A DNA stretch of 25,838 nucleotides, taken from IMG/VR virus record IMGVR_UViG_3300027896_000196, positions 1 to 25,838 of that record, one strand, 5' to 3'. Position 1 is the first letter of the stretch. Every line of letters starts with the position of its first letter. This document shows, piece after piece, positions 884 to 25,687 of the stretch. Origin of the DNA: a virus. The notes under the pieces were generated by a model. That model was not told where the DNA came from and ran no database searches. It was given only the letters and a program-made list of their open reading frames with translations. Both the position numbers and the translations under genes were made by a program.

Positions 884-3800
884 CTAATCTCTGTATAAGG
901 GCTTATTAGGCAGTCTATAAACTGCAACAACATTTTTATCTCCGTTAATATATCCAGTATAATTGTCAATGCCTAAAGAATCGCTCCGTGAAAAAATTAT
1001 TAAGATTCGTTCGCTGTTAAGAAATCTAATATCCGAACTATTTAAGACTTCTGCTATAATAGCATAGAATATTTTTCTGGAATTGGGTTCTTGAAGAGCC
1101 TCCGTTCTAAAAATTAAATCTTTAGAGCAAGTCTTATAAAAAAATCTACCTAGAGTATCACTTGAAGAATTTGAAAAAATAAATTCCCCATTTAAATCAG
1201 CTGAGACATAATAAGGGATTTGAACAAAACCACCATCAATAGAAAAATTAGAAAATTTAAGAGGTTCTATATTGTAGAATTGATTGTCATTAATAAAATT
1301 AGAATTATTAATTGGAATATTAATTAAAGGCTGAATGTATGGCTCTTTACTTAGGAGACTACCCCCTGTGCCAAAATTAGATATATTAATTTTCGAAGTT
1401 TTGGTTAACATTTTGCAGGTAAGACTATTTGGCAAATCTGAAATACACTGATAAGGCTGATAGTAATAACCGATCATAAGACCATCAGAAGTTCCCGAAA
1501 ATAAAAAAGAATTTTGTTTTAAAAGAGCCTGAATTGTTATGACTACTGGACTAGTCGTTGTAAAGGGTATCCCTTGATCATATATTACAAATTTTAAAAT
1601 AGTACCTAAACTTTGAATTTGTATAGGATACATTTTATTGCCAGTTGAGGCAATATTTAGCCAACAAAAAGGAAGAATAAGACCTTCCTCTTTAGGAATT
1701 GAGGGTAATCGCATAGTAGAAGATATACCAATTATATTGCATCCACCTAAATGTAAAGAGCCCCTATTAGAATCTACTGTAATTGCTCCTGATATACCTG
1801 TAGAAGCATTAATTGTTAAAATATCTGACAAACAAAAGGTTTTTAAACTCTTTTCTCCTTGAATAAAATTAACCGTAGCTCCATTTCTAATATTTTTATT
1901 GTTGCTATTGGCAATTACAAAAGCAACCATTTCGTAAACAGATCCTATAATATATTCATAGCCAGGAACTATCACTATTTGGATTATTCCTGTTTGCGTT
2001 AAAATGTCAGCTAATCGTAAAGAAAGACCAGCTGATATGTTATTAATTTTAGAAACTGCCGCTATTGAATAAATAGAGGTTGAATCAGGGCCTAATTTTG
2101 ATAATGGTATAGATAAAATTTTATTAGACCCTGAAACATTGCTACTATCAGCACGTACAAAATAATGAAGTTCTACTGTAGAAGCCATAGTCGCTGTTGT
2201 GCTACTACTATCCGATCCTGGATATGCTAAAACATAGTTATTATAACCAGAAAGGCCCGAATCCCACTGTTCTACTATTTTACCTGACACTTCATTTTCA
2301 AAAATTCCGTGATATAAAAGTGCTCCTGTATCACTATAATTTTTTACAATTTTAGGGTCAGAAGGAAGATAGGTCAATGATGTTGAATCTGTTCGAATAA
2401 AAGTAGCTTTTATATCATATCCTCCATTGTACCCTAAACCTGGATCCTGGGTTATAGTATTAGCAAAATTTTTAAAATTAAAAGTCAACATACTTGTGCC
2501 ATACCCAGTAAAGTCTCCTGGGACAATTTTTCCATTATTAGCTAGGGTACTTGAAACATAAGTAGCTGAACTACGTGCTGGGGTTTGAGTAAAAAACCCT
2601 GTATAATTATATTTTTTAAGGGGATCAAGAATTATAGGATCAGGGATTACTGTAGTTGCAGGCCAAGGATTTGGATCTGAATAGATAGTAACTATTTGCA
2701 CGTCCGAACTTATTTTACCCGTCACGGCATCACTCAAACTGTCTCCGATTTTTTGGCCCCCGTCATTATCCGTACCACCTATCCGATCAAGCTGCAGGAT
2801 CTGTGTGCCGTATCTGTCCGTTCCTAGGGTGTTTCTGGCAAAGCGAGTCTCTAGTTTATTGTCAAGTAGCCTATCCATATTTTCTTCGAGCAGTTGCTCC
2901 GCAGACGGCACCAAAATCTGATGTCGGACATCCAGCATGTCTGCATCAACCACATTATCAGATGTCAACAGATCAGGTCTGATAGACCTGCTGTTGGCAT
3001 TATTAGTGGAGCCATTGCCATTGTTTAGGGGGTCAAAATCCGAGCTATTTCTTCGCCCTATGAAAGCCATGGGAATGGCATAGCTATAGCCATCGACTGT
3101 GCCACCGCATTCTGCACGCCACATTCCATAATCGCCTGTAGTCGGGCCCATGTTAGTAAACGCTGAGTGGGGTCCCAGTGTATTGGGTCCTTGGCTTAAT
3201 ACGATCTGTGAGCCCAGTCCAGCTTCCGGATAATTAAAGGGGTCTACATCTGGCACCACTCTAATTTTATATTGTACTTGGACTCTTTTTGTAGTCTCAA
3301 TATTTGTGGTAGGGTGGATTTCATCATCGAGTAAATAGACGGTTGTATCTACATTGCCTTCATTGTAGACTCTCTGTACTTGACGATTGACAACGTAAGG
3401 ATTCTGAACGAGCCATAGTGCACCACTATTAATAGTATGCCATATTTGGGAGAATTGACCTGCTATCCATCCTTTAGCTTTATCTGCCATGTGTATGGCA
3501 TTGATATCGTAGGCTGTCTGGGGGTCCTGCAGGGTCCATGTCCCCCCGAGGTCATTGGATTCCAGAACAATGCCTGAGTCATACCCTCCTTTTAATACGG
3601 GATAATTCAGTTTATAGTAATAAGATATTCGCACCTGGGCAAAAGCAGAGGGAGCCAGAGCAAGAGTAATTTGCCCGTTAGCCCCATCAACGGAACTAAC
3701 AGCAGCAGTAGAGCCATTGACTTTAACAACTACATCGGACGTAGCAGTTGTAGTTGTGCCCGTGCCATTGCCTTTTGTAATGGGCTTATTCTGGACATTA

Positions 3801-5293
3801 AAAACTTTATTAATTCCATCAGCCTGACTGGACATGTCCTCATTATTTACTCTGCCATCTAAGGGTATTGTAGTTGGTATAGTACCTTTTTTACCAGTGA
3901 TCCAGGCCTTGCCCCTGACTATATTGTCATCTATTTTGTACCAATAATAAGCAATAACTTTGGCACAAGAAGCAGGAGCCGCGTTGAGAACTATCTGGCC
4001 GCTGGCTCCGAGTAAGGAGTCAACAAGAACAGCCGTGCCATTAACCTTCACAATGACATCAGCCGGTAAATTAGTTATAGTGCCTGTGCCGTCGCCTTTT
4101 GTAATGGGCTTATTCAGGACATTAAAAGTTTTATTAATCCCGTTAGCCTGGCTGGATACGTCTTCTCCTGCAACATAATCGTCTAATGTGGGAGCCATAG
4201 TCACGTCTGTATATTCTACTGATAGGCTATTATTGCCATTAATTCTATTGGACTGGGAATACCATGTAGCCCCACTTGTAGATGTAGCCAGGATCACGCC
4301 ATTGGCTCCCACGGCAAATCCAATATTAATGTCATAAAAATATACGGAATTCAATTTACTTGTAATGCCACTAGTCTGGACTGCCCAATGGGTTCCTCCA
4401 TCAGACGTTCTGAGAATGACTCCGGAGTCTCCTACTGCCCAGCCATTTTGGGTGTCAAGAAAATATATAGATCTTAAATTGTATGAAACGCCGCTATACT
4501 GAGCTGTCCAATTTATTCCGTTAGTAGTTTTTAAAATTATGCCTGAGTCTCCGACAATCCAGCCAATAAGCGAAGAATACATGAAGATGCCATTGAAATT
4601 ATCAATGTATCCGCTGGCCTGTACGGTCCAATTTTGGCCTCCTGTAGAGGTCCTGGCCATGGTGCCGTTATTACCGACTACCCAGCCTATGGAAGGAGTA
4701 ACGAAGTAGACACTATTAAGTTGATTTTTGGTAGCGATGGTCTGAACATCCCAAGTCTCTCCTGCGTTCTCCGTATAGAGTACTAGGCCATTTTCTCCTA
4801 CAGCCCATGCCACATTTGTATTAACGGCGTCGATGTCGAGGATAGTATCGATAATGGTAATGGGTCCAGGTCTGTTTGTAGGGTCGTTAGGCCCCAGCAG
4901 AGCTCTCCAAACTTCCAGGAACACCCCATTTACCTGTGCCGCTGAAATAGGGGCCGTGGGTAGCTTGACGAGATTTGCGTTGGCTGTAGACGTGTTTGTG
5001 CCTGTTACATAAACAACCTGGCCGTTGACTAAAGCATATTCTGGAACAGCGTTAGAAGGGTCTTGAGTATAAAAAGAATTTTTAAGCAGAGAACTGGTGT
5101 AATAAGGTCTGAAAGATAGCCAGCCTGAAGGTAGAGACGACAGGCGTCGTTGCCCCAGTTGGTTTTGAATCTGCTGGAGCAGATTGACTTCTGTGTCTAA
5201 TGGGGGCTTGCCCTTCTGGAAAATAACCGTGTCGTAGTTATAGCCGTTGGGTTCGTCTACATAAGAAACACCAGTTCCAAGATTTTCTGCCAT
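884..5293 (-). CDS. Large tail fibre / host-contact protein with a seven-bladed Ycf48-like propeller
   Basis: This 1469-residue protein is probably the fibre or receptor-contact protein and the last gene of the baseplate series. Residues 1-140 are a conserved-looking attachment region (DTVIFQKGKPPLDTEVNLLQ). Residues 151-347 hold five repeats of about 40 residues of Ycf48/BNR type (GWxVGDSGxIxxTxxGGxxW). A sixth blade starts near 360, is interrupted by two tandem 108-residue units, and resumes at about 566-589. A seventh follows at 595-632. Residues 640-860 form a second conserved-looking region (RPDLL, DVRHQILVPSAEQL). Residues about 865-1469 are a Ser/Asn-rich beta region of unknown type, probably the distal tip, encoded by much more A+T-rich DNA. 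The start at 5293 has a TAGGAG site overlapping the stop of the wedge gene. Ycf48 folds are used here as a structural scaffold; nothing suggests a photosynthetic role. No catalytic site was recognised. Confidence 0.85.
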   Translation of the reverse strand: MAENLGTGVSYVDEPNGYNYDTVIFQKGKPPLDTEVNLLQQIQNQLGQRRLSSLPSGWLSFRPYYTSSLLKNSFYTQDPSNAVPEYALVNGQVVYVTGTNTSTANANLVKLPTAPISAAQVNGVFLEVWRALLGPNDPTNRPGPITIIDTILDIDAVNTNVAWAVGENGLVLYTENAGETWDVQTIATKNQLNSVYFVTPSIGWVVGNNGTMARTSTGGQNWTVQASGYIDNFNGIFMYSSLIGWIVGDSGIILKTTNGINWTAQYSGVSYNLRSIYFLDTQNGWAVGDSGVILRTSDGGTHWAVQTSGITSKLNSVYFYDINIGFAVGANGVILATSTSGATWYSQSNRINGNNSLSVEYTDVTMAPTLDDYVAGEDVSSQANGINKTFNVLNKPITKGDGTGTITNLPADVIVKVNGTAVLVDSLLGASGQIVLNAAPASCAKVIAYYWYKIDDNIVRGKAWITGKKGTIPTTIPLDGRVNNEDMSSQADGINKVFNVQNKPITKGNGTGTTTTATSDVVVKVNGSTAAVSSVDGANGQITLALAPSAFAQVRISYYYKLNYPVLKGGYDSGIVLESNDLGGTWTLQDPQTAYDINAIHMADKAKGWIAGQFSQIWHTINSGALWLVQNPYVVNRQVQRVYNEGNVDTTVYLLDDEIHPTTNIETTKRVQVQYKIRVVPDVDPFNYPEAGLGSQIVLSQGPNTLGPHSAFTNMGPTTGDYGMWRAECGGTVDGYSYAIPMAFIGRRNSSDFDPLNNGNGSTNNANSRSIRPDLLTSDNVVDADMLDVRHQILVPSAEQLLEENMDRLLDNKLETRFARNTLGTDRYGTQILQLDRIGGTDNDGGQKIGDSLSDAVTGKISSDVQIVTIYSDPNPWPATTVIPDPIILDPLKKYNYTGFFTQTPARSSATYVSSTLANNGKIVPGDFTGYGTSMLTFNFKNFANTITQDPGLGYNGGYDIKATFIRTDSTSLTYLPSDPKIVKNYSDTGALLYHGIFENEVSGKIVEQWDSGLSGYNNYVLAYPGSDSSSTTATMASTVELHYFVRADSSNVSGSNKILSIPLSKLGPDSTSIYSIAAVSKINNISAGLSLRLADILTQTGIIQIVIVPGYEYIIGSVYEMVAFVIANSNNKNIRNGATVNFIQGEKSLKTFCLSDILTINASTGISGAITVDSNRGSLHLGGCNIIGISSTMRLPSIPKEEGLILPFCWLNIASTGNKMYPIQIQSLGTILKFVIYDQGIPFTTTSPVVITIQALLKQNSFLFSGTSDGLMIGYYYQPYQCISDLPNSLTCKMLTKTSKINISNFGTGGSLLSKEPYIQPLINIPINNSNFINDNQFYNIEPLKFSNFSIDGGFVQIPYYVSADLNGEFIFSNSSSDTLGRFFYKTCSKDLIFRTEALQEPNSRKIFYAIIAEVLNSSDIRFLNSERILIIFSRSDSLGIDNYTGYINGDKNVVAVYRLPNKPLYRD
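3611..4165 (-). repeat. Tandem in-frame repeat inside the fibre gene (two copies, 324-base period)
   Basis: The copies lie at 3935-4165 (residues 377-453) and 3611-3841 (residues 485-561), exactly 324 bases or 108 codons apart. Both encode EDxSSQAxGINKxFNV, then NKPITKGxGTGT, xVxVKVNG, a GQIxL strand and a closing YYxYK. The similarity is also visible in DNA: 21 identical bases begin at 3771 and at 4095. This points to a fairly recent duplication of a small beta domain inside a propeller blade. Copy number in such arrays can vary between relatives. Confidence 0.85.
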
Positions 5294-5305: not shown

Positions 5306-8300
5306 CTAGTCCTGTGGCGTATCAAAATTAATAGCCAAATTTCCGATAGTTAAATATTCAACAGAAGCCACGTTTATATCTTTAGTTCCTTTTTCCCCAT
5401 AGACATAATATGCTACCTGATAATCTTTAGTATCCGGCAACAGCCCGTCTTTTGTGCTTACCACAATTTTACCGTCTGCTTGAATATAGCCTCTACCTGG
5501 GCCTCCTGAGACGTCCAGGACGTCTTCCTGAAGAACCAGCGGCATGCTGTCTTCAAAAATTCCTCTGAAGAGATTATCGGAGCCGCCCTTATCAACTGTG
5601 GCATAAGTGAGCACTGGTATGACTGTAATAAAAGATCTTACTAAGCCTTCATTAAAAATTTCAAATTGGGTATGGCCGATGTCGTCTCGAATAATAAAAG
5701 ATCCGTCAGACTTGACCATTCTATTCAAAGGCAGAGCCATATAATTAACTTCCGGTAAATCTTGTATAAGCTGTATTATTTTGCTCTGAGTAAGCGTCTC
5801 TCCAATACTCAGGCGGTTAATATAATTGCCTATGGCCGTGCCTATTTTAGTTCTTAAAGTAGCCTGATAGACATTGATTTGTCCTCCATAGGTGGAGTAC
5901 AGAGGCGCTGCCGTGGGGACTACTGTAAATGCAAAGTCTACATTATTTTCAACGGCCTGTTTTACGATGACATCTGCACAGGCATGTTTCATCTTGTCCA
6001 TTTCTGTCTGGACGGTTGTTAGCAGGTCATTTATAGTATACGTCACGACAAAGTTTTCAATAGCTGTATAACTTATTAAAACTTCCTGGCCATTTTGGAT
6101 GTAGCCGCTTTCAATCAGCAGAATATTAGTAGGGGTTGTCGTGGCCCCGGGAATGATACGATAGTCAATATTTTCCGAGTAAGTAATTGTACTAGTGTTG
6201 TTCCGGACAATAATTGTTGTGGGGTCGGCTCCCAGATATACAAGTGGTTCTTGTTTACCAATAATCATGACGTGGGCTTCGTTGCTGACTGGTTGAAAGG
6301 TTTCCAAGGGCAAATTATTGGCAAATTTTATACGGACGCTGGTTGTAGCTATAGTAGAATTGCCGTTAGCCAAGGGGTCTGCAAGAGCCACGAGTTCGTA
6401 GTTTTCTGGAGTCAGGGGTCCTGAGAGTTGTCCTACAACTGAGACAATATTAATTACAGGCTGATTTTTCAAGATATATGTATCGGAGCTTCTGTATTTG
6501 TAGTCTACTTTAATTACGTCTGCGGAGGCCAGGCCTATTGCGACGTTTTTAGGCAGGGTTTCGTTTAATTTTATAGTATCTCCGTCGCCTATAATCTGAT
6601 AGCCTGTTATGTCATAATCCTGCACTTTTGTAGCGTTATGTACCAGGCTCACGCTAAAGATAGGTGTATGAGCTGTAACCAAAGGATTTAAAGATTTGAA
6701 TTCATAAGCAGGGGCGTTGATAACTGCAAAGGTTTCACCTGACATGGTTCCTTGGTTGTCCCCGATGCTTTCATATGAGAAGGCTATTTGGTCCGAGACT
6801 TGTTTTAATCTTTGGCCTTGGACATAGACATCTACTTTGCCTCCTACGTGTTGATTTCGGAGGGAGTCATAGTCTCGAATCATCAGGGGGTCACCTGCTG
6901 CCTGGATCATCATGCGTTGGACTCCGGATACTCCGGCTGCTGTTTTATTGTAGCCTCCCAGGGTTCCTGTGTCTGCATACATAGCTAATTCTATTCTAGT
7001 GGACAGGTCATGGTTAGATTCTTCGTCCTGGCCGAAGGCTATGGGGTTCGGGTTTTCTACTTTAAAATTGGAGTCAGCGCCTGAGCTAATAGATGTAACG
7101 GTGAAGGAGTCTGCATTTCCGGTGCTTCCTGCTGTCAGTGCCTGTACTTGAACTGATACCTCATACTGGTTTGTAAGGGAGTTATAAAATTGAGCTGCGT
7201 TAGCCAATGAAATGGTTTTACTTTCCAGAGTCATATAGGCTTGAGAGGGGATTCCCTGGTCGAGGTCGCCTTGGGAGGTTACGGTGGCTCCTTGGTTGAC
7301 TATCATGTCTCTAATGGGGGCTGTGCCCGTGTAGAAAGTAACGTAGCCGATAGCTGATGTAGCTCCTTTTCTGATGGTGTCTACATTTGAAGCCAGGGCA
7401 TCGAATTGGCTGTCTATGAGGTTTTGGACATCCTGATCTCTTGTCAGTCCCAGAGCTATTTTAAGGGCTTGTTTGGGCATGGAAGATGAGACGGGGTCGC
7501 TTATGCCGTCGTGATTGGCGTCATCGAAATCCTGTAGGGCGCTTACGGACAGGGATATGGCCAGAAAATTTTGTATGACGTAGACCCGGGCCATTTCTTC
7601 TGATGGTGGGTCGAGAATATCTCTTATAACTGATCCTGGGAGCATGGAGACATTTTTATTTCCGGTCAGGAGTTCCTGGCTGAATGTCAGGATGATGTCT
7701 ACCTGGGATCTATTAGGAAGAGTTTTAAGTCCTGTAGTAATAGTGACAGGGGATCCTTGGAGTTCCATTGAGTAGGCGCTTTCTGTAACTTGTCCAAGGA
7801 CTGGGTCATAGATCACGGCTGTTATTACGAAGAAGAAGGGTTGATCTTGATTGAGCAGGACATTGGGTAATGTTCCGGCTGATATTAGGGCTGACAGGAC
7901 GGTATTGGTCAGAGTAAAGGAGTAGTAGTAGGTTCTGATTACTTCTTCGGTGGTGGTTGTGACTCTGACATTTCCAGCAGTATCCACAGACTGACTAATA
8001 GGACTAGTAGTATCTTCATAATAGGTATAGGCGGACACTATTTGGGGGTTCATTTTTGCATAGGTTCTTGATGAGCCTCCGCCGCTTTCTACTGCGACGT
8101 AATAGTTATATCCGATGGTTTGTGGTTCGGGGTTTTGGGCGTTCAGGGCTTCTATGCTATCCTGATATGATCTGAGTCTGACTCCTGTAGGGGGAGTCAC
8201 GGTTATTTTTGTATTTGAGCTCAGGATAGTTATTTGGATAGTAGTCGGGGCACTTTGTGTGCCGTCCTGGTCTATAGCTATGATAGATAGGTTGTTTGCT

Positions 8301-8494
8301 CCTATGGGGAGAGTTCCGGACCAAGCCCATATGCTACTTCCTGAGGTGTAGGTAACTCCGAAGGTGGAGTTATTAACTAGGATGTTTTTTGTATTAGGGG
8401 CGACCGTAGTCCCTGACAGGGTCTGAGTTGGGATGTCAGAGGCGTAGTTGACTCCGTTAGTGGGGAGTAGTATGATGGGTGCTAGTATAGTCAT
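5306..8494 (-). CDS. Baseplate wedge protein, baseplate-J family, with inserted beta domains
   Basis: This 1062-residue protein is expected to form the baseplate wedge ring that links the hub to the fibres, like P2 gpJ, Mu gp47 or T4 gp6. The baseplate-J core is recognised at residues about 385-560, including AIGYVTFYTG, the QDEESNHDLSTRIE helix and the GVSGV segment. A C-terminal wedge part lies at about 818-965 (YINRLSIGETLTQSKI, then the DLPEVNYMALPL segment). Family members are often 300-500 residues, so this one is strongly enlarged. Residues 1-92 are an Ig-like domain. Residues about 570-815 are an insertion between the two core parts; it includes a domain (588-685) also present in the 1763-residue protein. 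D325-x-N327-x-D329-G330 resembles a calcium loop. The gene starts 2 bases after the stop of the gene before it and has no clear Shine-Dalgarno site, so its translation is probably coupled. Confidence 0.88.
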   Translation of the reverse strand: MTILAPIILLPTNGVNYASDIPTQTLSGTTVAPNTKNILVNNSTFGVTYTSGSSIWAWSGTLPIGANNLSIIAIDQDGTQSAPTTIQITILSSNTKITVTPPTGVRLRSYQDSIEALNAQNPEPQTIGYNYYVAVESGGGSSRTYAKMNPQIVSAYTYYEDTTSPISQSVDTAGNVRVTTTTEEVIRTYYYSFTLTNTVLSALISAGTLPNVLLNQDQPFFFVITAVIYDPVLGQVTESAYSMELQGSPVTITTGLKTLPNRSQVDIILTFSQELLTGNKNVSMLPGSVIRDILDPPSEEMARVYVIQNFLAISLSVSALQDFDDANHDGISDPVSSSMPKQALKIALGLTRDQDVQNLIDSQFDALASNVDTIRKGATSAIGYVTFYTGTAPIRDMIVNQGATVTSQGDLDQGIPSQAYMTLESKTISLANAAQFYNSLTNQYEVSVQVQALTAGSTGNADSFTVTSISSGADSNFKVENPNPIAFGQDEESNHDLSTRIELAMYADTGTLGGYNKTAAGVSGVQRMMIQAAGDPLMIRDYDSLRNQHVGGKVDVYVQGQRLKQVSDQIAFSYESIGDNQGTMSGETFAVINAPAYEFKSLNPLVTAHTPIFSVSLVHNATKVQDYDITGYQIIGDGDTIKLNETLPKNVAIGLASADVIKVDYKYRSSDTYILKNQPVINIVSVVGQLSGPLTPENYELVALADPLANGNSTIATTSVRIKFANNLPLETFQPVSNEAHVMIIGKQEPLVYLGADPTTIIVRNNTSTITYSENIDYRIIPGATTTPTNILLIESGYIQNGQEVLISYTAIENFVVTYTINDLLTTVQTEMDKMKHACADVIVKQAVENNVDFAFTVVPTAAPLYSTYGGQINVYQATLRTKIGTAIGNYINRLSIGETLTQSKIIQLIQDLPEVNYMALPLNRMVKSDGSFIIRDDIGHTQFEIFNEGLVRSFITVIPVLTYATVDKGGSDNLFRGIFEDSMPLVLQEDVLDVSGGPGRGYIQADGKIVVSTKDGLLPDTKDYQVAYYVYGEKGTKDINVASVEYLTIGNLAINFDTPQD

Positions 8495-13160: not shown

Positions 13161-13382
13161 TTAGAATCTTTTTAAATTGTTAACTTTCTTTTGAAGATCC
13201 ATTCCATAGTCATGTATAGCATGACCTAGAAGTTCCGTTGTTTCTTTAATAGCTCTCACAAAAGGACTCTCAGTACTGGCCCTTTGCCATACATCTTCTA
13301 CGGCATCAGGCTTTTGTTGATATTTAGAGCCGTCTGATTTGACGCTATCTGTTGTTCGATCTGTTTCAGCTTGGCGTAGCAC
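13161..13382 (-). CDS. Small helical protein overlapping the end of the 1763-residue gene
   Basis: This 73-residue protein has a GTG start at 13382. A perfect AGGAGG site lies 5 bases before it, inside the coding region of the 1763-residue gene. The two genes overlap by 85 bases in different frames. Its stop lies 2 bases before the start of the 612-residue gene, so it fills what would otherwise be a 139-base gap in a tightly packed series. The product is highly charged: residues 1-35 are polar, and residues about 40-73 would form an amphipathic helix ending in KKVNNLKRF. No family is recognised. It could be a small assembly factor or adaptor for its neighbours. The ribosome-binding site, position and spacing make it a convincing gene. 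Confidence 0.7.
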   Translation of the reverse strand: MLRQAETDRTTDSVKSDGSKYQQKPDAVEDVWQRASTESPFVRAIKETTELLGHAIHDYGMDLQKKVNNLKRF

Positions 13383-16300
13383 CCTTGCCTCCTATTAAAA
13401 CGGTTATTAGCCCATGTATATAAGTCTCCAGGGACCCCTGTAGTTTCTGTCTTTAAAATTTCTTCTGCAGCCAAATCGTTTCTTATTTCGCCTTCACGAG
13501 TATTTAATTGTGTTGTTCGTGTATCAGTAAGATAAGGATAACGACCCGTAGCAAAAGAATATCTCTGATTTAATGTCAGTTCTGAAATAGTTTGATATGT
13601 GATTGTTGCATCTCTTAAGCCATAATATACTGTAGCATTGGGGTTTATTGGGCTATAATTTAGCTTAAACGCTGCTGAAGAGTAATCATTATAAACAGGA
13701 TCCCCTGAAGTGGAAAAACCACTAATGCCATTAATTATATTTTTAATGTAGCCCACAGTAGAATCGCTATATACAAGGGCTGTAGAATCCGCGACCCCAC
13801 CTACTTTCCAGTAAAGATTCAATGCTGTAGAATCAGTAATATAATAGGCATTGCTTACCGGGGCACCTGCTTGTATTGTAAAAACGGGTGTATTAGCAAG
13901 ATTAAATTGAATTTGATTTGTAGCACTGTAATTGCCCCCGACGGAGCCATCCCACCCCGTCCAGGTTCCCCCAACTATTGACCCATCGCTAAAAGTAACA
14001 ACAGGAGTATAGAGGCCATATAGTGGGATATCATAATTCAATATTCTTGGATCATATAATGGATCCGGTGTAACAGTAAGAGTTATAGACGTCAGCCCAT
14101 TTATATTAGTAAAATCCTGAGTGAATTCTTGAAAATTAATGGGCCATTTCCAATCCAATGTTAGAATATCTAAATTATAGCCCAACGCAGCATTAGCCTG
14201 ATCAAGAGCTATAGAAGCATTTAATAAAGCCGCAGAAGCGTCCGTATAAGAAGTAATAATCGAAGGCTCTTTTATAATTTGATTAAGGGCACTTATTTGG
14301 GCTTCTATTTTAGGGATTTCATTATTGAGACTATCTATTTCTCCATTTATAGCAGTAGATGCATTAACTAGGTCATTATTAATACGGTCCATTCTATTAT
14401 ATTCATCAAACATAGCTATCAAAGCCACAGCCTCATTTACAAGATAGCCAGCTTCTGAAGAATCTGATATAATTTCAGGTAGATGACTGTTTCTATCAAA
14501 ATTTCCTATAGAGACAGCTCCTGGAACAAAGCCAAGTTTAGATGTGGTAGCGTTATCTCCCAACTTTAAATAGTTTATAGGATAGGAAGCTCTTAGGACC
14601 ATTGTGGATAAATAGCCATAACTCTGAGTGGGGTCAACGACATTTTCAACAGTAGCTGATAATCCCGGGATATTACTGGTTAACTGCTCTGCTATCTGAG
14701 CAATGTTAAGCTTTGAAACAGGCGGCTGAAGAGCTGCTATAAGCTGTGGAGGCAAAGGTAGTGCTCCAAAGCGGATAAGAGGGTCTAAAAATACATAAGT
14801 GCTGTCTGAGCTATCCAAAGTACATGTAAATACATCTCCTGAAACAAGATTAAAGTTATTATTTTTAGAGCCCACATGTTTCGGACCAATATAGCCGTCA
14901 TCGTCATAAAGAGGGAAAGGAGACGCTGCCGTATAGGACTCCCCATTTATAGTATCCGACGTTGACTGTTCTTCAAAAGGCCTATCCAGGGTCAATGAAT
15001 TGTTGCTATTTATAGCGTAGACATTATATAGAGCAGTTGAGTCCGTTCTTTTTATTACGGAATTCAGGGGTAGATTTTGACTTGTTAATTGATACGACCA
15101 CTGAGTACCAACCCCAACTACGTCTGCGGAGCCCTGAGTAAAGATAGCTCCGACATTAGTATAATAACCCGTGAGTGGGTTGCAAATCATGGGTTCCATA
15201 TTTGTGTAATCAGCTTTGGAGAATATTCTATTTATGGATTTATTAGCTGCAAGTTGTTGTTCCTCTGAGAATATCCCGTCATTATTAAAGAGCTTTGGTC
15301 CTGTAGCAGCTTCCATTTCTAAGCCATAGCTGGTGAGCCTGTTCTGAAAGAAGTCATAAATCTTTTTGAATATTCTACATTCAATCTCTTCATCCTGGCG
15401 TTTATATTCATTCCCTGCCAGGCCGCCACTACTGGGATCCTGGCTCTCATCACCATAGACGCTACCGCCCTGGCCGGTATTACCGTTTAATTGGAGAGCT
15501 TCGCTTTGCATTCTGGGAATAGTCACTGAACTGAAAAAGTCTTTCTGGTCGAGCACTTGAATATAAAACTGGTCAAGATTGTCGTATTCAAAAGAGGCAA
15601 AGACATTAGATTTAGCTGGGAGGATTGTGAAGTATTTTAAAGAGTATGCTACTTGGGAAGTATTAAGAAAACGACGGCCCATATAATCTAAATTATAGCG
15701 GTCGTATTGTTTTATGGGGTTAGTTAATTCAATGACTCCTGGCTCATTTATATTAAAATTTGTAGTGTCAACAAAATTGATAAAAGGTGACTGGTTACTA
15801 TATCTCAAAGCATTAGAGGCATATAATACTGTACTGGAGTCTTTATAAACTGTGGAAGCAGTGGGAATAATTTTATTAGACTGCCAGGAGGGCACATAAT
15901 TCAAAACAGATACTATGGGAGACAGTGCAGTAGAAAGAGTTCCAAGTGTCGGATAATTACTATAGAGGAATGATGTGTTATCGATATGAATAGAAGATGA
16001 ATCAGATACAACATTAAGAATTCTGTTATCTATACCATTTAAAATGAAGGCTGGCTGGCTTTTCAGAGTTACGATAGGCTCAAAAGGTATTATTTCTGTT
16101 GTGCCTTCATTATAAACGGGGGCATCAGAGCATGTAAGTAAAGAGAGAGCAATAGCATCAGTACAGTCTTTTACAATTTCAGACGTCAAAGTCACTTGAG
16201 TTTTTGAGCCGTCGAATGTTGCACTTAGAACTAAATAAAGATTATTTAAGACATCTATTAAAGTCCCCTGTCTAAAAAGATTGCTGATATTACTACCTGA

Positions 16301-18589
16301 AAAAGATATAGTAGTTGACCCCGATATTATGGGGTCGGCGGTAACGAGAATAGGTAGAAACATTACAAAGGAGTCAGAAAAGAAAATTTTAGGATTTGTA
16401 ATATCCTGTGAGATGGAACCCTTTATTGTGACTCTCGTGCCAAGGCCGTCATATACGACAGTATCTACTACATAATAAAATTGGCTGGCTGAATCAGGCA
16501 GGCCAAGATTGAGTATTGCTCCAGGAGATACTGATGTTGTAAGGTCTATACCTTCAAGATAAATAGTCTGGAATCCTGTTAAAATATTTAAATAGTTTAC
16601 ACTGACTGGAACATATTCGACAGTTTCGTTAGGAAATTTATAGTCAACTACAACGATATCCTTTGCTCCTAGCCCTATGCTTGCATTTAATGTTGGAGAC
16701 AAGCCTATTGTATTTCCTATACCTGAAAGACCCGTCAGGTCATAATCTTTATTTCTTGTCTCATTATATACTCTTAAAACAGTTATATCCTGAGAGTCAA
16801 AACTAAGTGCTGTATTATATAATTGAAATTTATAAGTTGGGGCGTCTAATACTGTAAGCCGGGCATCAATCACAGTACAGAAAGAAGTCCCATCAGTATA
16901 AGTCATGTTGTTAACTTGTTTAGATAATGCTGTGTAAGTAACTGAAAAGGTGCTTGGAGTAGTTACAGCTCCTAAGAGTATTATGGTTCCTGTTAAATAG
17001 CTGACAACATAATCTTCCCCCTCGGATAGATAAGCTCCAGCTTTAGAAACAATCATGGAACCTTGCTTTATAGGATATAAGCTGGTTTTTAATTGAGTCT
17101 GGCCTACCTGTGCTTGGATAGCATCAGTAAGGGATCCTTGTGCCTCAACCATATAATGCATTTCATAAATGTCATTAGGCCCGGGGTGATCTTGTGCCTG
17201 GGGCTTAAATTTTCCAGTATCAGGTTGAAAAATAATGTCATCTGTAGGGGAAGAGGGAAAAGATATTTGCTGTTTCACGCCATTCAAATAGACAGTGAAA
17301 CCATAGTCTATTACAGAATTATAGCTGACGCCTACATATTTAACAACCGGCTCATTTATTATTGAGTCAGTAATTTCCAATATGCCGGAATAGGGTTCAA
17401 GAGCATAATCTTTATAAGGGGTCAGGGTTGAGCCATTAAGAGTTATATTTTCCGATCCGGGCATTATTCCAGTAATAGCGGCACCTGAACTATCCAATAA
17501 TTGCATTTGTCCGCTTGATGTGCTTGAGGGACTAGGCTGAACATTTTTAACGCCCTTAAGAAACATAATATTGGCTACCTGGCGTTGGTCAGGAGGCGGT
17601 GGAGGCGTATAAAGAGGGCTCTGACTGAAACTTAAAACATAATCCTGATTGCCTTGTGGAAACTGGTCTACTAATTTCTGGTTAATCTTTAACTGCATTG
17701 TCTCAGGATGAGGAACAACAGGCAAAGAGTACTGGAAAGTATCATAAATAGTAGATTTAGAAAAAGTTTTGCTAACTGTATTAACATCCATTATATCCGG
17801 AGCAGTTGATACTAGTGAAGACGTAAATCTTTCATTTAACCCATCAGCAAGAGGAATATAATTTAAAGATGTTGGAAGGCCGCTCCCCGTAGTAGAGTCA
17901 TATTTCCATTTAGCCGCCTGGGTGTCATACACAATATTATCAGTGGAATATCTGATATCCGTATTACCAATAGCCCATTTTTTTGAAACATAGCTCTCAT
18001 AGGCAGTGACTCCTGCATAAGGGGAGACAAGTTCGAGCTCTGTAGAAGAAGGAATATTCTTAATTCTATAATAGACTAAATAGCTATTAGACCTGATAAA
18101 GTCACCTACTGAAAAGCCTGTTGTAGATGAGACAGTTACCGTAGTAGAGCCATTATAAAAATTTGCCTGGCCTGTTGAGGTATTAGTTATTACATCGGGC
18201 TCAACAACATAGCTTCTCTGCCCTAAACCGAATGTAATCTGATAGGTCCCTTCAAAGCCGGAGCTGCTATCCAATTCAAAGCTGTCAGCAGTTAATCTTT
18301 TAGAAACAAAGAATAAGCTATTATTTGCTGAAAGGCTGTCATTGGGGAAAAGAGCTGAAGTATCTAAAGAACTATATGGCGGCTCAAAATAAAAATCTGT
18401 AACTATATTGCTGTTAGGGGAAAAGGAGCCATCTCCTATAATAGCACTACTTGATGGAATATATTGTCCGTTAACATAGACGGGTCCCGTAGTCTGGGCA
18501 TTATTAATGCCTGACTTCACCCCACGAATTTCATAGGGAGTAAAATCTAAAGATTTATAAGTTAAAAGAGTACTTGGCGTTGTAGTCAT
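13298..18589 (-). CDS. Giant multidomain baseplate/fibre structural protein
   Basis: This 1763-residue protein is not assigned to one family but is built of recognisable phage-type beta modules. Residues about 140-200 and 1143-1207 look like the strand-rich surface modules of fibre proteins (NGSTTVTV, GDFIRS; VGVGTQWSYQL, NSLTLDRPF). Residues about 380-425 and 512-555 share the pattern 'GxxLxxxxDYxxxxxxGxIxL ... Y'. Residues 578-675 match the domain inserted in the baseplate-J protein. A Gly/Ser-rich hinge lies at 1036-1060. A long coiled-coil hairpin is likely at about 1395-1440, with more helices at 1690-1755. A Pro run sits at 329-333. The start overlaps the stop of the upstream gene by ATGA. 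The end overlaps the 73-residue gene. The shared domain and its place after the spike gene suggest a baseplate-peripheral role, such as a wedge extension or fibre connector. Confidence 0.7.
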   Translation of the reverse strand: MTTTPSTLLTYKSLDFTPYEIRGVKSGINNAQTTGPVYVNGQYIPSSSAIIGDGSFSPNSNIVTDFYFEPPYSSLDTSALFPNDSLSANNSLFFVSKRLTADSFELDSSSGFEGTYQITFGLGQRSYVVEPDVITNTSTGQANFYNGSTTVTVSSTTGFSVGDFIRSNSYLVYYRIKNIPSSTELELVSPYAGVTAYESYVSKKWAIGNTDIRYSTDNIVYDTQAAKWKYDSTTGSGLPTSLNYIPLADGLNERFTSSLVSTAPDIMDVNTVSKTFSKSTIYDTFQYSLPVVPHPETMQLKINQKLVDQFPQGNQDYVLSFSQSPLYTPPPPPDQRQVANIMFLKGVKNVQPSPSSTSSGQMQLLDSSGAAITGIMPGSENITLNGSTLTPYKDYALEPYSGILEITDSIINEPVVKYVGVSYNSVIDYGFTVYLNGVKQQISFPSSPTDDIIFQPDTGKFKPQAQDHPGPNDIYEMHYMVEAQGSLTDAIQAQVGQTQLKTSLYPIKQGSMIVSKAGAYLSEGEDYVVSYLTGTIILLGAVTTPSTFSVTYTALSKQVNNMTYTDGTSFCTVIDARLTVLDAPTYKFQLYNTALSFDSQDITVLRVYNETRNKDYDLTGLSGIGNTIGLSPTLNASIGLGAKDIVVVDYKFPNETVEYVPVSVNYLNILTGFQTIYLEGIDLTTSVSPGAILNLGLPDSASQFYYVVDTVVYDGLGTRVTIKGSISQDITNPKIFFSDSFVMFLPILVTADPIISGSTTISFSGSNISNLFRQGTLIDVLNNLYLVLSATFDGSKTQVTLTSEIVKDCTDAIALSLLTCSDAPVYNEGTTEIIPFEPIVTLKSQPAFILNGIDNRILNVVSDSSSIHIDNTSFLYSNYPTLGTLSTALSPIVSVLNYVPSWQSNKIIPTASTVYKDSSTVLYASNALRYSNQSPFINFVDTTNFNINEPGVIELTNPIKQYDRYNLDYMGRRFLNTSQVAYSLKYFTILPAKSNVFASFEYDNLDQFYIQVLDQKDFFSSVTIPRMQSEALQLNGNTGQGGSVYGDESQDPSSGGLAGNEYKRQDEEIECRIFKKIYDFFQNRLTSYGLEMEAATGPKLFNNDGIFSEEQQLAANKSINRIFSKADYTNMEPMICNPLTGYYTNVGAIFTQGSADVVGVGTQWSYQLTSQNLPLNSVIKRTDSTALYNVYAINSNNSLTLDRPFEEQSTSDTINGESYTAASPFPLYDDDGYIGPKHVGSKNNNFNLVSGDVFTCTLDSSDSTYVFLDPLIRFGALPLPPQLIAALQPPVSKLNIAQIAEQLTSNIPGLSATVENVVDPTQSYGYLSTMVLRASYPINYLKLGDNATTSKLGFVPGAVSIGNFDRNSHLPEIISDSSEAGYLVNEAVALIAMFDEYNRMDRINNDLVNASTAINGEIDSLNNEIPKIEAQISALNQIIKEPSIITSYTDASAALLNASIALDQANAALGYNLDILTLDWKWPINFQEFTQDFTNINGLTSITLTVTPDPLYDPRILNYDIPLYGLYTPVVTFSDGSIVGGTWTGWDGSVGGNYSATNQIQFNLANTPVFTIQAGAPVSNAYYITDSTALNLYWKVGGVADSTALVYSDSTVGYIKNIINGISGFSTSGDPVYNDYSSAAFKLNYSPINPNATVYYGLRDATITYQTISELTLNQRYSFATGRYPYLTDTRTTQLNTREGEIRNDLAAEEILKTETTGVPGDLYTWANNRFNRRQGCYAKLKQIEQQIASNQTALNINKSLMP
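13388..13393 (-). promoter_or_regulatory. AGGAGG ribosome-binding site inside a coding region
   Basis: On the minus strand this reads AGGAGG, the full Shine-Dalgarno core, 5 bases before the GTG of the 73-residue gene. It lies inside the final codons of the 1763-residue gene. It decides the start of the small gene and is the strongest such site seen in the window. Confidence 0.75.
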
Positions 18590-23393: not shown

Positions 23394-24788
23394 TTAGCCC
23401 CTTCCACCATTAGTTTGTTGTTGTCTATAGACAAGATAATTAGGAGGAACTCCAACGGGTGTAGATTGCCCATAAGAAGCCCCTTCCATAACATTAGCAT
23501 AATTAGAAGCTGCTTCTTTAGTCAACTTTGGAGCATTAGGATTCAATTCAAGATGTATTGGATCATTTGCCTCATGCGGTTGCCAAAAACCAAATTCTTC
23601 CATAAAAGTTTGGCCCGTACTAGGATCTATTTTTTTTAGATTATTTAGCGTGGCTCTATCTACATCTAAAGCTTCGCCATCTTCGTGTTTACTGGTTCCA
23701 GGTTTATCTACGGGATATTTTTTATTTGTATTATCATATAATATTTTTTGCTGCTCATAAGTTCGATAAGCCGATGTAACATCTATTGTTGTGCCATATA
23801 TTTCCTTATATCTTTGTGCCATACCATATAAAGCGGCTTTGGTATTAGGGGCTAAGTTTGTAACATCTGCTGGAGCTCCTCCAAGAGTTCCTTGAGGCTC
23901 AGCATTTATGCCTACAGCTTTTAGATCTACTTTACTATCATCTTTTGTGTAGCCACTTTCTGTGCTCTCATCAGGCTTTAATGTACTCTCTATTAAAGTC
24001 TTGCCTCTTCTATTTAAATTACTTAATAGTCTTGCAGCTATTCCGGTATTTTTAAGAGGTTCCTCTCCAATACTTATAAAATGCCCTCTGATTTCATTAT
24101 AGTCATTACTTAGAGAACTCACTACAAATTCAAAGTTATAATCAAATAGAAAAGGCTTCTCTGCATTTTCATCTATAGTAAAGTTATTAAAATGACCCAA
24201 ATAGGACTGGCCATCATAAGTTATTTCAATACCATGTATTACATTTATTACCCTGGTAAAAGCTGTCCTTATAGATGCTGGGTCAACAAACTCATATCCA
24301 TTATTCCTGTAAGCATAAAGTAGAGCAAAAAAATTATGCATACCCATAGAAAGTCTACGGTCTACCGCTGTTAAGCCCGCCCCACTAACCATAAAGGCTG
24401 CTGTAGTTCCAGTAGCTGTTAATAGGTCTTGATTGGGGCCCCATAATTGAGTTATATAGCCGTCTCTAGTATAAGCAGCATGTACCGTAGATGTTTTACC
24501 ATGGTTCATGTTTGCCGGGTTAATCAACATAGTAAATTGCAGCTTATTATTATTTATATCAGGAGCAGATATAGTCATAGGTAATGCTGGGTCTTTAGCT
24601 CCTGTAACCCCTTTAATAGACCCCGCAATATCAATATTTCCATCAGGGCTTGGGTTAGCTGCCGTAAGTATAGACAACCCTTCAGGGGTGGCAGCAAAGT
24701 TCTCAAATTCCAGAAATGAATAATTACTGGTATTTTCTTTTATGCCCATTAAAAAGGTGCCAAGATCTGTAAATGAAGTTTTTCCCAT
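23394..24788 (-). CDS. Tail-tip protein fused to an M15-family peptidoglycan peptidase
   Basis: This protein has 464 residues. Residues 87-225 match the next gene upstream (see the 298-residue entry): an NPA strand, an LWG segment, GTTAAF, and a GHF strand before FDYNFEF. Residues about 310-420 are an M15 zinc peptidase domain: SAYR (339-342), S366-x-H368-xx-G-x-A-x-D375, and H412. The likely zinc ligands are H368, D375 and H412. D409, three residues before H412, takes the catalytic-base position, as recalled for the T5 endolysin, where Asp rather than Glu is used. Such enzymes cut peptide bonds in peptidoglycan (L-Ala-D-Glu or D-Ala-D-Ala type). Being attached to a tail part and next to the hub, it probably opens the cell wall locally during DNA entry. 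The start lies 2 bases after the previous stop and has no strong Shine-Dalgarno site. Confidence 0.82.
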   Translation of the reverse strand: MGKTSFTDLGTFLMGIKENTSNYSFLEFENFAATPEGLSILTAANPSPDGNIDIAGSIKGVTGAKDPALPMTISAPDINNNKLQFTMLINPANMNHGKTSTVHAAYTRDGYITQLWGPNQDLLTATGTTAAFMVSGAGLTAVDRRLSMGMHNFFALLYAYRNNGYEFVDPASIRTAFTRVINVIHGIEITYDGQSYLGHFNNFTIDENAEKPFLFDYNFEFVVSSLSNDYNEIRGHFISIGEEPLKNTGIAARLLSNLNRRGKTLIESTLKPDESTESGYTKDDSKVDLKAVGINAEPQGTLGGAPADVTNLAPNTKAALYGMAQRYKEIYGTTIDVTSAYRTYEQQKILYDNTNKKYPVDKPGTSKHEDGEALDVDRATLNNLKKIDPSTGQTFMEEFGFWQPHEANDPIHLELNPNAPKLTKEAASNYANVMEGASYGQSTPVGVPPNYLVYRQQQTNGGRG

Positions 24789-24790
24789 AA

Positions 24791-25687
24791 TTATGGATTC
24801 GTTTTAGGGGCCTCTGACTGATCTAAGGTCTGCCCAGTAGGGCCTATTTTTCCTGTTTGACCAATAGCGGAATAAGGATTATTTGAAGTCATCCCCAAAG
24901 GAATTTTTTTAGTTTCCGTTATTAAAGGAGATGCCCCAGAAAAGCGATAGACAGTCCGTTCCGATTTAAATGTTATTGTGTATTGAAATCTAAAAGGAGA
25001 CGCAGAGTCTTCCACGGTATCTATATTTTCAAAATAGCCTCGATAGCAGGCATAATCATAAGTCATTTCAATATAGAATCTTTCTTGGACCATACCTCTA
25101 ATATCAAAAGTAGCTGCATTAGCATTCATCAGACTAATAACTTTTTTGAATTCTTTATAGGATGCTGTTTCTCTTCTCATTACTGTTGCCAGGCCACTTG
25201 TATTATTAATATCTAAGGATACAGGATTAAATGTACCCGTGTCAGGAAGTTTAGCATATTGATTAAAGGAATCTCTAATATTACGATCATTGAGTCCGGG
25301 CTCAGGAGGCGGAGTCAATGTCGGGGGAAGACCCTGCCATATAAAGGCTGCGGTACTTCCTTGAAAGGATATAGTGTCAAAATCTTCCCCCCAATGTTCT
25401 TCTAGCCAGCCAGACATAGTCTGAGTTCTACCAACCATTTTTGACATGTTTACTGTTATTGAAGCTGGATTCACCGACAAAACTATACCTAAAATGGTCT
25501 CCTCATCTATCGTATAAGGTACGGCATTTCCGCTTTCGTCAATTGTGCGAATTACAAAAGGAACCCTGTCAACGGGTCTTTCATAGCCTTGAGTATTATA
25601 TAAATAATTATTCAAAGCTGGAAAATACGTCGGTGAAGACGCAGCCGAATTTAAGGTATCATTTAAATAATAGTTTTTATCAGCCAT
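24791..25687 (-). CDS. Tail-tip structural protein, paralogue of the N-terminal half of the next gene
   Basis: This protein has 298 residues. Residues 69-117 (SVNPASITVNMSK, EEHWGEDFDTISFQGSTAAF) and about 172-240 (FYIEMTYDYACYRGYFENI, SPFRFQYTITF) align with residues 87-135 and about 144-225 of the peptidase fusion. The shared marks are an NPA strand, a hydrophobic-WG turn, GxTAAF, a GxF strand and a final FxFxYxxxF strand. The last 45 residues are polar and rich in Gly, Pro and Thr. It sits between the possible tape measure end and the hub. That is where tube-initiator or hub-adaptor proteins (the T4 gp48/gp54 or XkdP zone) are usually encoded. I infer a role joining tube and hub; the family name is not certain. 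Confidence 0.7.
   Translation of the reverse strand: MADKNYYLNDTLNSAASSPTYFPALNNYLYNTQGYERPVDRVPFVIRTIDESGNAVPYTIDEETILGIVLSVNPASITVNMSKMVGRTQTMSGWLEEHWGEDFDTISFQGSTAAFIWQGLPPTLTPPPEPGLNDRNIRDSFNQYAKLPDTGTFNPVSLDINNTSGLATVMRRETASYKEFKKVISLMNANAATFDIRGMVQERFYIEMTYDYACYRGYFENIDTVEDSASPFRFQYTITFKSERTVYRFSGASPLITETKKIPLGMTSNNPYSAIGQTGKIGPTGQTLDQSEAPKTNP

Follow-up and report, generated by a model that had tools for sequence, protein, structure and literature searches.

A predicted Ycf48-type seven-bladed propeller with two related inserts in blade 6 of a likely baseplate protein from a large phage

Introduction

The solved structures closest to the propeller described here are Ycf48 and HCF136 (PSII_BNR; PDB 2xbg and 5ojr), seven-bladed rings of Asp-box repeats that are free-standing photosystem II assembly factors. 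Among phage proteins, gp131C of the large phage phiKZ is a seven-bladed propeller at the baseplate periphery, with an unconfirmed role (PMC4901313); by description it is the C-terminal domain of gp131 (PDB 4GBF). The phi11 receptor-binding protein (Gp45, PDB 5EFV) carries a five-bladed propeller with a putative sugar cavity and takes part in host recognition at the baseplate (PMC4901313); it is trimeric with a coiled-coil stem. In the cyanophages S-8S56, S-CAM9 and S-SSM7, Ycf48-type repeats occur in a "baseplate wedge initiator" at the gp7 position, beside the gp6-position gene. In the S-8S56 protein (3891 aa) the repeats lie near the C-terminus. A propeller carrying an inserted domain is also found in the integrins, where the alpha-I domain is set into the propeller and widens ligand binding (PMC12422189). 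This is a works-alike only: an unrelated animal receptor with one insert at another site. Among the papers searched, none dealt with a Ycf48-type propeller in a phage tail.

The locus analyzed here is located on a 25.8-kb metagenome-derived viral contig (IMG/VR record IMGVR_UViG_3300027896_000196), whose full 25,838 nucleotides are called the window below. Pfam, the AlphaFold strands and the ring model of a relative show seven Asp-box repeats in a predicted closed seven-bladed ring, as in Ycf48 and HCF136. The ring differs from these in being a domain of a viral tail protein, encoded in a tail gene cluster and bearing inserts in blade 6. It differs from phiKZ gp131 in sitting in a scaffold loop, and from phi11 Gp45 in having seven blades; neither 4GBF nor 5EFV was among the PDB sequence matches of the window propeller.

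Results

The propeller gene follows baseplate J

The tail gene cluster is on the minus strand of the window. The propeller gene is an open frame for 1469 aa (Table 1) and starts 12 bases after the baseplate J gene. It is likewise directly downstream of baseplate J in all relatives whose gene order was inspected; the position directly after gp6/baseplate J is the same as in T4 and the cyanophages. The product is thus likely located at the baseplate. A previous sequence-only reading had placed the repeats at 3398-4843, which matches our numbering (residues 151-632), and had called the protein a fibre. Given this gene order, we correct that label as unproven.

Table 1. Coordinates of the propeller gene, its parts and its upstream neighbour in the window
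Feature	Residues	Positions	Strand	Evidence
Whole gene	1-1469	884..5293	-	Open frame; full-length relatives
N-terminal scaffold, ending in conserved VFLEVW strand	1-142	4868..5293	-	Kept in propeller and propeller-less homologues
Propeller blades 1-5	143-354	4232..4867	-	Pfam PSII_BNR; AlphaFold strands
Blade 6 strand A	355-370	4184..4231	-	Family alignment; model strand 359-369
Unit 1, A-B loop of blade 6	377-461	3911..4165	-	Unit profile E 7e-41; site shared by all one-unit relatives
Blade 6 strand B (KAWITGK)	462-468	3890..3910	-	Conserved family strand B; model strand 460-469
Seam joining strand B to unit 2	469-484	3842..3889	-	Missing in one-unit relatives; low pLDDT at 471-477
Unit 2, B-C loop of blade 6	485-569	3587..3841	-	Unit profile E 2e-37; window only among the matches listed
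Blade 6 strands C and D	573-595	3509..3577	-	Alignment; model strands 575-579 and 586-589
Blade 7	596-632	3398..3508	-	Alignment; model strands 597-630
Second part of conserved scaffold	640-830	2804..3376	-	Kept in propeller-less homologues
C-terminal part, least conserved	841-1469	887..2773	-	Mean pairwise identity 0.38-0.39
Neighbour: baseplate J/baseplate wedge subunit (T4 gp6-like)		5306..8494	-	Pfam PF04865 7.6e-14; phrog_6 3.8e-22

A conserved scaffold holds the propeller

Queries with a single protein, either the full window product or the ring alone, recovered no relative among viral contigs, and alignment queries were needed. When the window protein was aligned with the phage homologues from LR745208 (485 kb) and Tunturi_5 (gp247; 309 kb; a cultured phage of Tunturiibacter), the alignment picked up 364 relatives in viral contigs; we kept the best 80 matches, which represent 78 loci. 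Plasmid matches were cellular YCF48-related proteins. Five loci in metagenome-assembled bins gave no usable host signal. Two scaffold relatives (L094 and L095) are found on one 195-kb contig (JAKQDD010000002.1) from a bin classed as a Verrucomicrobiota MAG; this contig may belong to a phage or prophage.

The relatives are of two kinds, with and without the propeller. Where measured, the propeller-less homologues have the VFLEVW strand, a loop of about 42-63 residues and then an RVQxQY strand; the propeller itself is therefore an insert in a scaffold loop. A propeller-less paralogue is also present downstream in the propeller phages L007, L009-L012 and L044. It lies about 5-6 kb from the propeller gene in L007 (19985-23047), L009 (19532-22606) and L010 (19478-22498), and the same spacing is found in L011 (19270-22305), L012 (20148-23228) and L044 (14654-17359).

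The scaffold had no match in Pfam or PDB and only scattered weak matches in PHROGs (best phrog_14489, in 5 of 32 members). Its identification as T4 gp7, T4 gp8 or cyanophage gp7 was rejected for lack of a match; hhalign against T4 gp7 and cyanophage gp7, with single sequences on one side, gave probabilities below 1%. The cyanophage gp7-position protein was the top fold match among viral proteins. Its scaffold similarity was undetectable, and we therefore treat the cyanophage case as a parallel rather than as shown homology. In T4 gp7 (L087 5061-8159) one Asp-box-like stretch (VSNDKGQTWKAV) was seen by eye only, and the protein gave no profile match to the propeller family.

The propeller is predicted to be a closed seven-bladed ring

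Residues 143-632 form a Ycf48-type seven-bladed propeller by Pfam match and AlphaFold prediction. Pfam PSII_BNR matched in four stretches with 87.4 bits (cut-off 27; E 1.4e-24), and the solved structures that matched the repeats by sequence were Ycf48 (E about 1e-14) and HCF136. An AlphaFold model of residues 1-840 of the window protein with 29 relatives (model 1; mean pLDDT 74.6, pTM 0.52) has seven blades of four strands each, mostly at pLDDT 84-95. Residues 1-50, 134-147, 471-477, 563-571, 635-669, 761-772 and 806-840 are of low confidence, and two of these stretches (134-147 and 635-669) are the linkers between ring and scaffold. In blade 6 the order is strand A (359-369), unit 1, strand B (460-469), unit 2, strand C (575-579) and strand D (586-589).

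Foldseek with the 840-residue model was uninformative on ring closure because the alignments apparently failed to span the two inserts. The ring alone was therefore folded from L010, a relative with one unit and 54% identity to the window protein over residues 1-840 (51% over the ring). This ring-only model (pLDDT 91.9, pTM 0.85) matched designed closed seven-bladed rings with TM scores of 0.85 and 0.81 (by target length), an eight-bladed design more poorly (0.65), and Ycf48 with 0.70-0.73. This comparison is good evidence that the propeller family forms a closed seven-bladed ring, closure having been measured on the one-unit relative. For the two-unit window protein, a closed ring is supported by homology together with model 1. 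The earlier proposal of five clear Ycf48/BNR blades followed by two more, one of them split, agrees with the Pfam score and the Ycf48 structure matches. The prediction found seven four-stranded blades and not fewer, and together with the L010 ring it points to one closed ring interrupted in blade 6 rather than an open array of repeats.

Blade 6 carries an insert throughout the family

Among the best 80 of the 364 relatives, all propeller proteins that cover blade 6 have an insert between strand A and a conserved strand B with the consensus (K/R)AW(I/V)xG. In at least 12 distinct relatives the insert is a single 85-aa unit in the A-B loop, followed by strand B; this set takes in L013 (a divergent copy, E 2e-5) and L008 (partial). 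A second group (L016, L018-L035 and L037-L040) has an unrelated module of about 150 aa at this site, shorter in some members. Two units were found only in the window among the matches listed. The one-copy and two-copy forms of the unit, for which the sequence-only reading had proposed to search, do occur; a zero-copy form, that is an empty blade 6, was not seen in propeller relatives covering blade 6 among the best 80 of 364.

In the window, the conserved strand B is KAWITG (462-467), located after unit 1. YVAGE (373-377) had previously been taken for strand B of blade 6. In the relatives that stretch varies and leads into the unit, and this assignment is given up. Two 108-residue units had also been described. 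Both copies are real and 108 residues is the correct repeat period, but homology is confined to the first 85 residues of a period. The remaining 23 residues differ between the two periods because blade strands lie in them.

The unit itself had no PDB match below E 0.1. Its nearest Pfam model is DUF2460, to which unit 2 scored 17.3 bits (cut-off 30.4); weak matches to this model occurred in three of nine units, with a best E of 0.0034. An RNA-ligase domain was considered and rejected, its scores falling under the cut-off.

Discussion

Host-surface binding or a structural role

We estimate a probability of about 0.6 that this is a nested baseplate protein in which a scaffold holds a seven-bladed propeller and blade 6 of the propeller holds modules, duplicated here, that putatively bind the host surface; the architecture comes from alignment and structure prediction. 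The protein would belong to the baseplate of a large contractile-tailed phage and would have been made by nested insertion. The scaffold, known also without a propeller, would hold the closed Ycf48-type ring in one loop. Blade 6 would serve as a fixed acceptor of smaller modules, and family members would normally carry a single one, between strands A and B. In the window phage the 85-aa module would have been duplicated, with the second copy between strands B and C. Ring and modules may be displayed at the baseplate periphery and may bind a ligand on the host surface, a role that has been proposed for other phage propellers. The function we favour, adhesion, is plausible by analogy to the precedents phiKZ gp131C and the phi11 receptor-binding protein.

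The main rival keeps the same architecture and gives it a structural role. Propeller and modules would be spacers or contacts, between wedges or to fibres, and the receptor would be bound elsewhere, e.g., by the C-terminal part or by another gene product. We consider this less probable than adhesion, yet a serious contender. The conservation of ring and unit is close to that of the scaffold, and neither is hypervariable: in the one-unit class plus the window, blades 1-5 have a mean pairwise identity of 0.55, the unit 0.54 and the N-terminal scaffold 0.57, and the variable part is the C-terminal one (0.38-0.39). The unit profile also matches other large tail proteins near scaffold genes, including the annotated tail sheath of Tunturi_5 (L096 2173-5787) and an unannotated LR745208 ORF (L097 2152-6225) with two copies by eye. 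This recurrence argues for a general tail add-on rather than an adhesion-specific domain. The cyanophage Ycf48-type repeats, in a gene adjoining the gp6-position gene, are likewise consistent with a structural role. Against it, the homologues and paralogues that lack the propeller indicate that it is not needed for the basic job of the scaffold. In addition, the occupation of one blade 6 site by two unrelated modules in different lineages looks more like an exchangeable surface part.

Taking the adhesion reading further, we tentatively propose an undescribed baseplate family with a plug-in propeller, a blade 6 cassette site at which modules are swapped, and a duplication that would have led to a two-sided adhesion head. 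This extension is doubtful enough to be put forward as a suggestion. If true, two unrelated module types are exchanged at blade 6 between lineages and each ring face carries a module. Most tail-base proteins of large phages lack annotation, and the present scaffold, unmatched in Pfam and PDB, is an example. A fixed acceptor loop and insertion at three nested levels (scaffold, propeller and module) would show how phages add surface domains and keep the closed ring unbroken, and the forms with one and with two units are a natural pair for comparing structure and adsorption.

Placement of unit 2

The sequence-only reading had envisaged a two-domain arm projecting from blade 6. Both units are indeed in blade 6, but as two inserts: the A-B loop holds unit 1 and the B-C loop holds unit 2. 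They therefore do not make up one two-domain arm at one point. In the propeller fold, the A-B and C-D loops are on one face of the ring and the B-C and D-A loops are on the other. By this topology the two units should leave the modelled ring on opposite faces.

Unit 2 could also be located in the C-D connection or in another pairing of strands, which we regard as unlikely. The seam GTIPTTIPLDG (470-480) is also strand-C-like, by eye KAWITGKKGTIPTT could pass for a complete B-C hairpin (GWAVGDSGTILKTT), and the pLDDT of the seam is low at 471-477. Model 1, however, assigns strands C and D to 575-579 and 586-589, after unit 2, and the stretch there (SGIVLESNDLGGTW) corresponds in the alignment to strands C and D in every relative. 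The seam resembles the lead-in to unit 1 as well (LDGRVNNED after strand B compared to LDDYVAGED, by eye). With unit 2 in the B-C loop, this resemblance suggests a duplication spanning the lead-in, the unit and strand B, with later loss of the second strand B.

Origin of the two units

Units 1 and 2 share 56% aa identity over 85 residues (BLASTP 3e-24, two-sequence comparison). Their DNA is 78% identical over the first 43 codons and then falls to about 55%. In a small tree of units they are sisters (support 0.925) and unit 2 has the longer branch, which fits a duplication in the lineage of the window. That the two-unit form is a metagenome assembly artefact of a one-unit protein is very improbable: the contig is metagenome-derived and no other sequence among the matches listed has two units, but the frame is open, the copies are too different for repeat mis-assembly, and each is the closest relative of the other, as expected of a within-lineage duplication.

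Shared domains were also observed in other genes of the window. A VanY-type D-Ala-D-Ala carboxypeptidase domain (Pfam 4.5e-7) in the product of 23394-24788 (-) makes this protein a candidate tail-borne peptidoglycan hydrolase; the protein has a domain in common with the product of the adjoining 24791-25687 (-) (23% identity, E 5e-9). A module of about 75 aa is common to residues 591-667 of the baseplate J protein and residues 580-652 of a 1763-aa tail protein (13298-18589, -), with 40% identity (E 1.6e-10), and is read as module exchange within one tail cluster.
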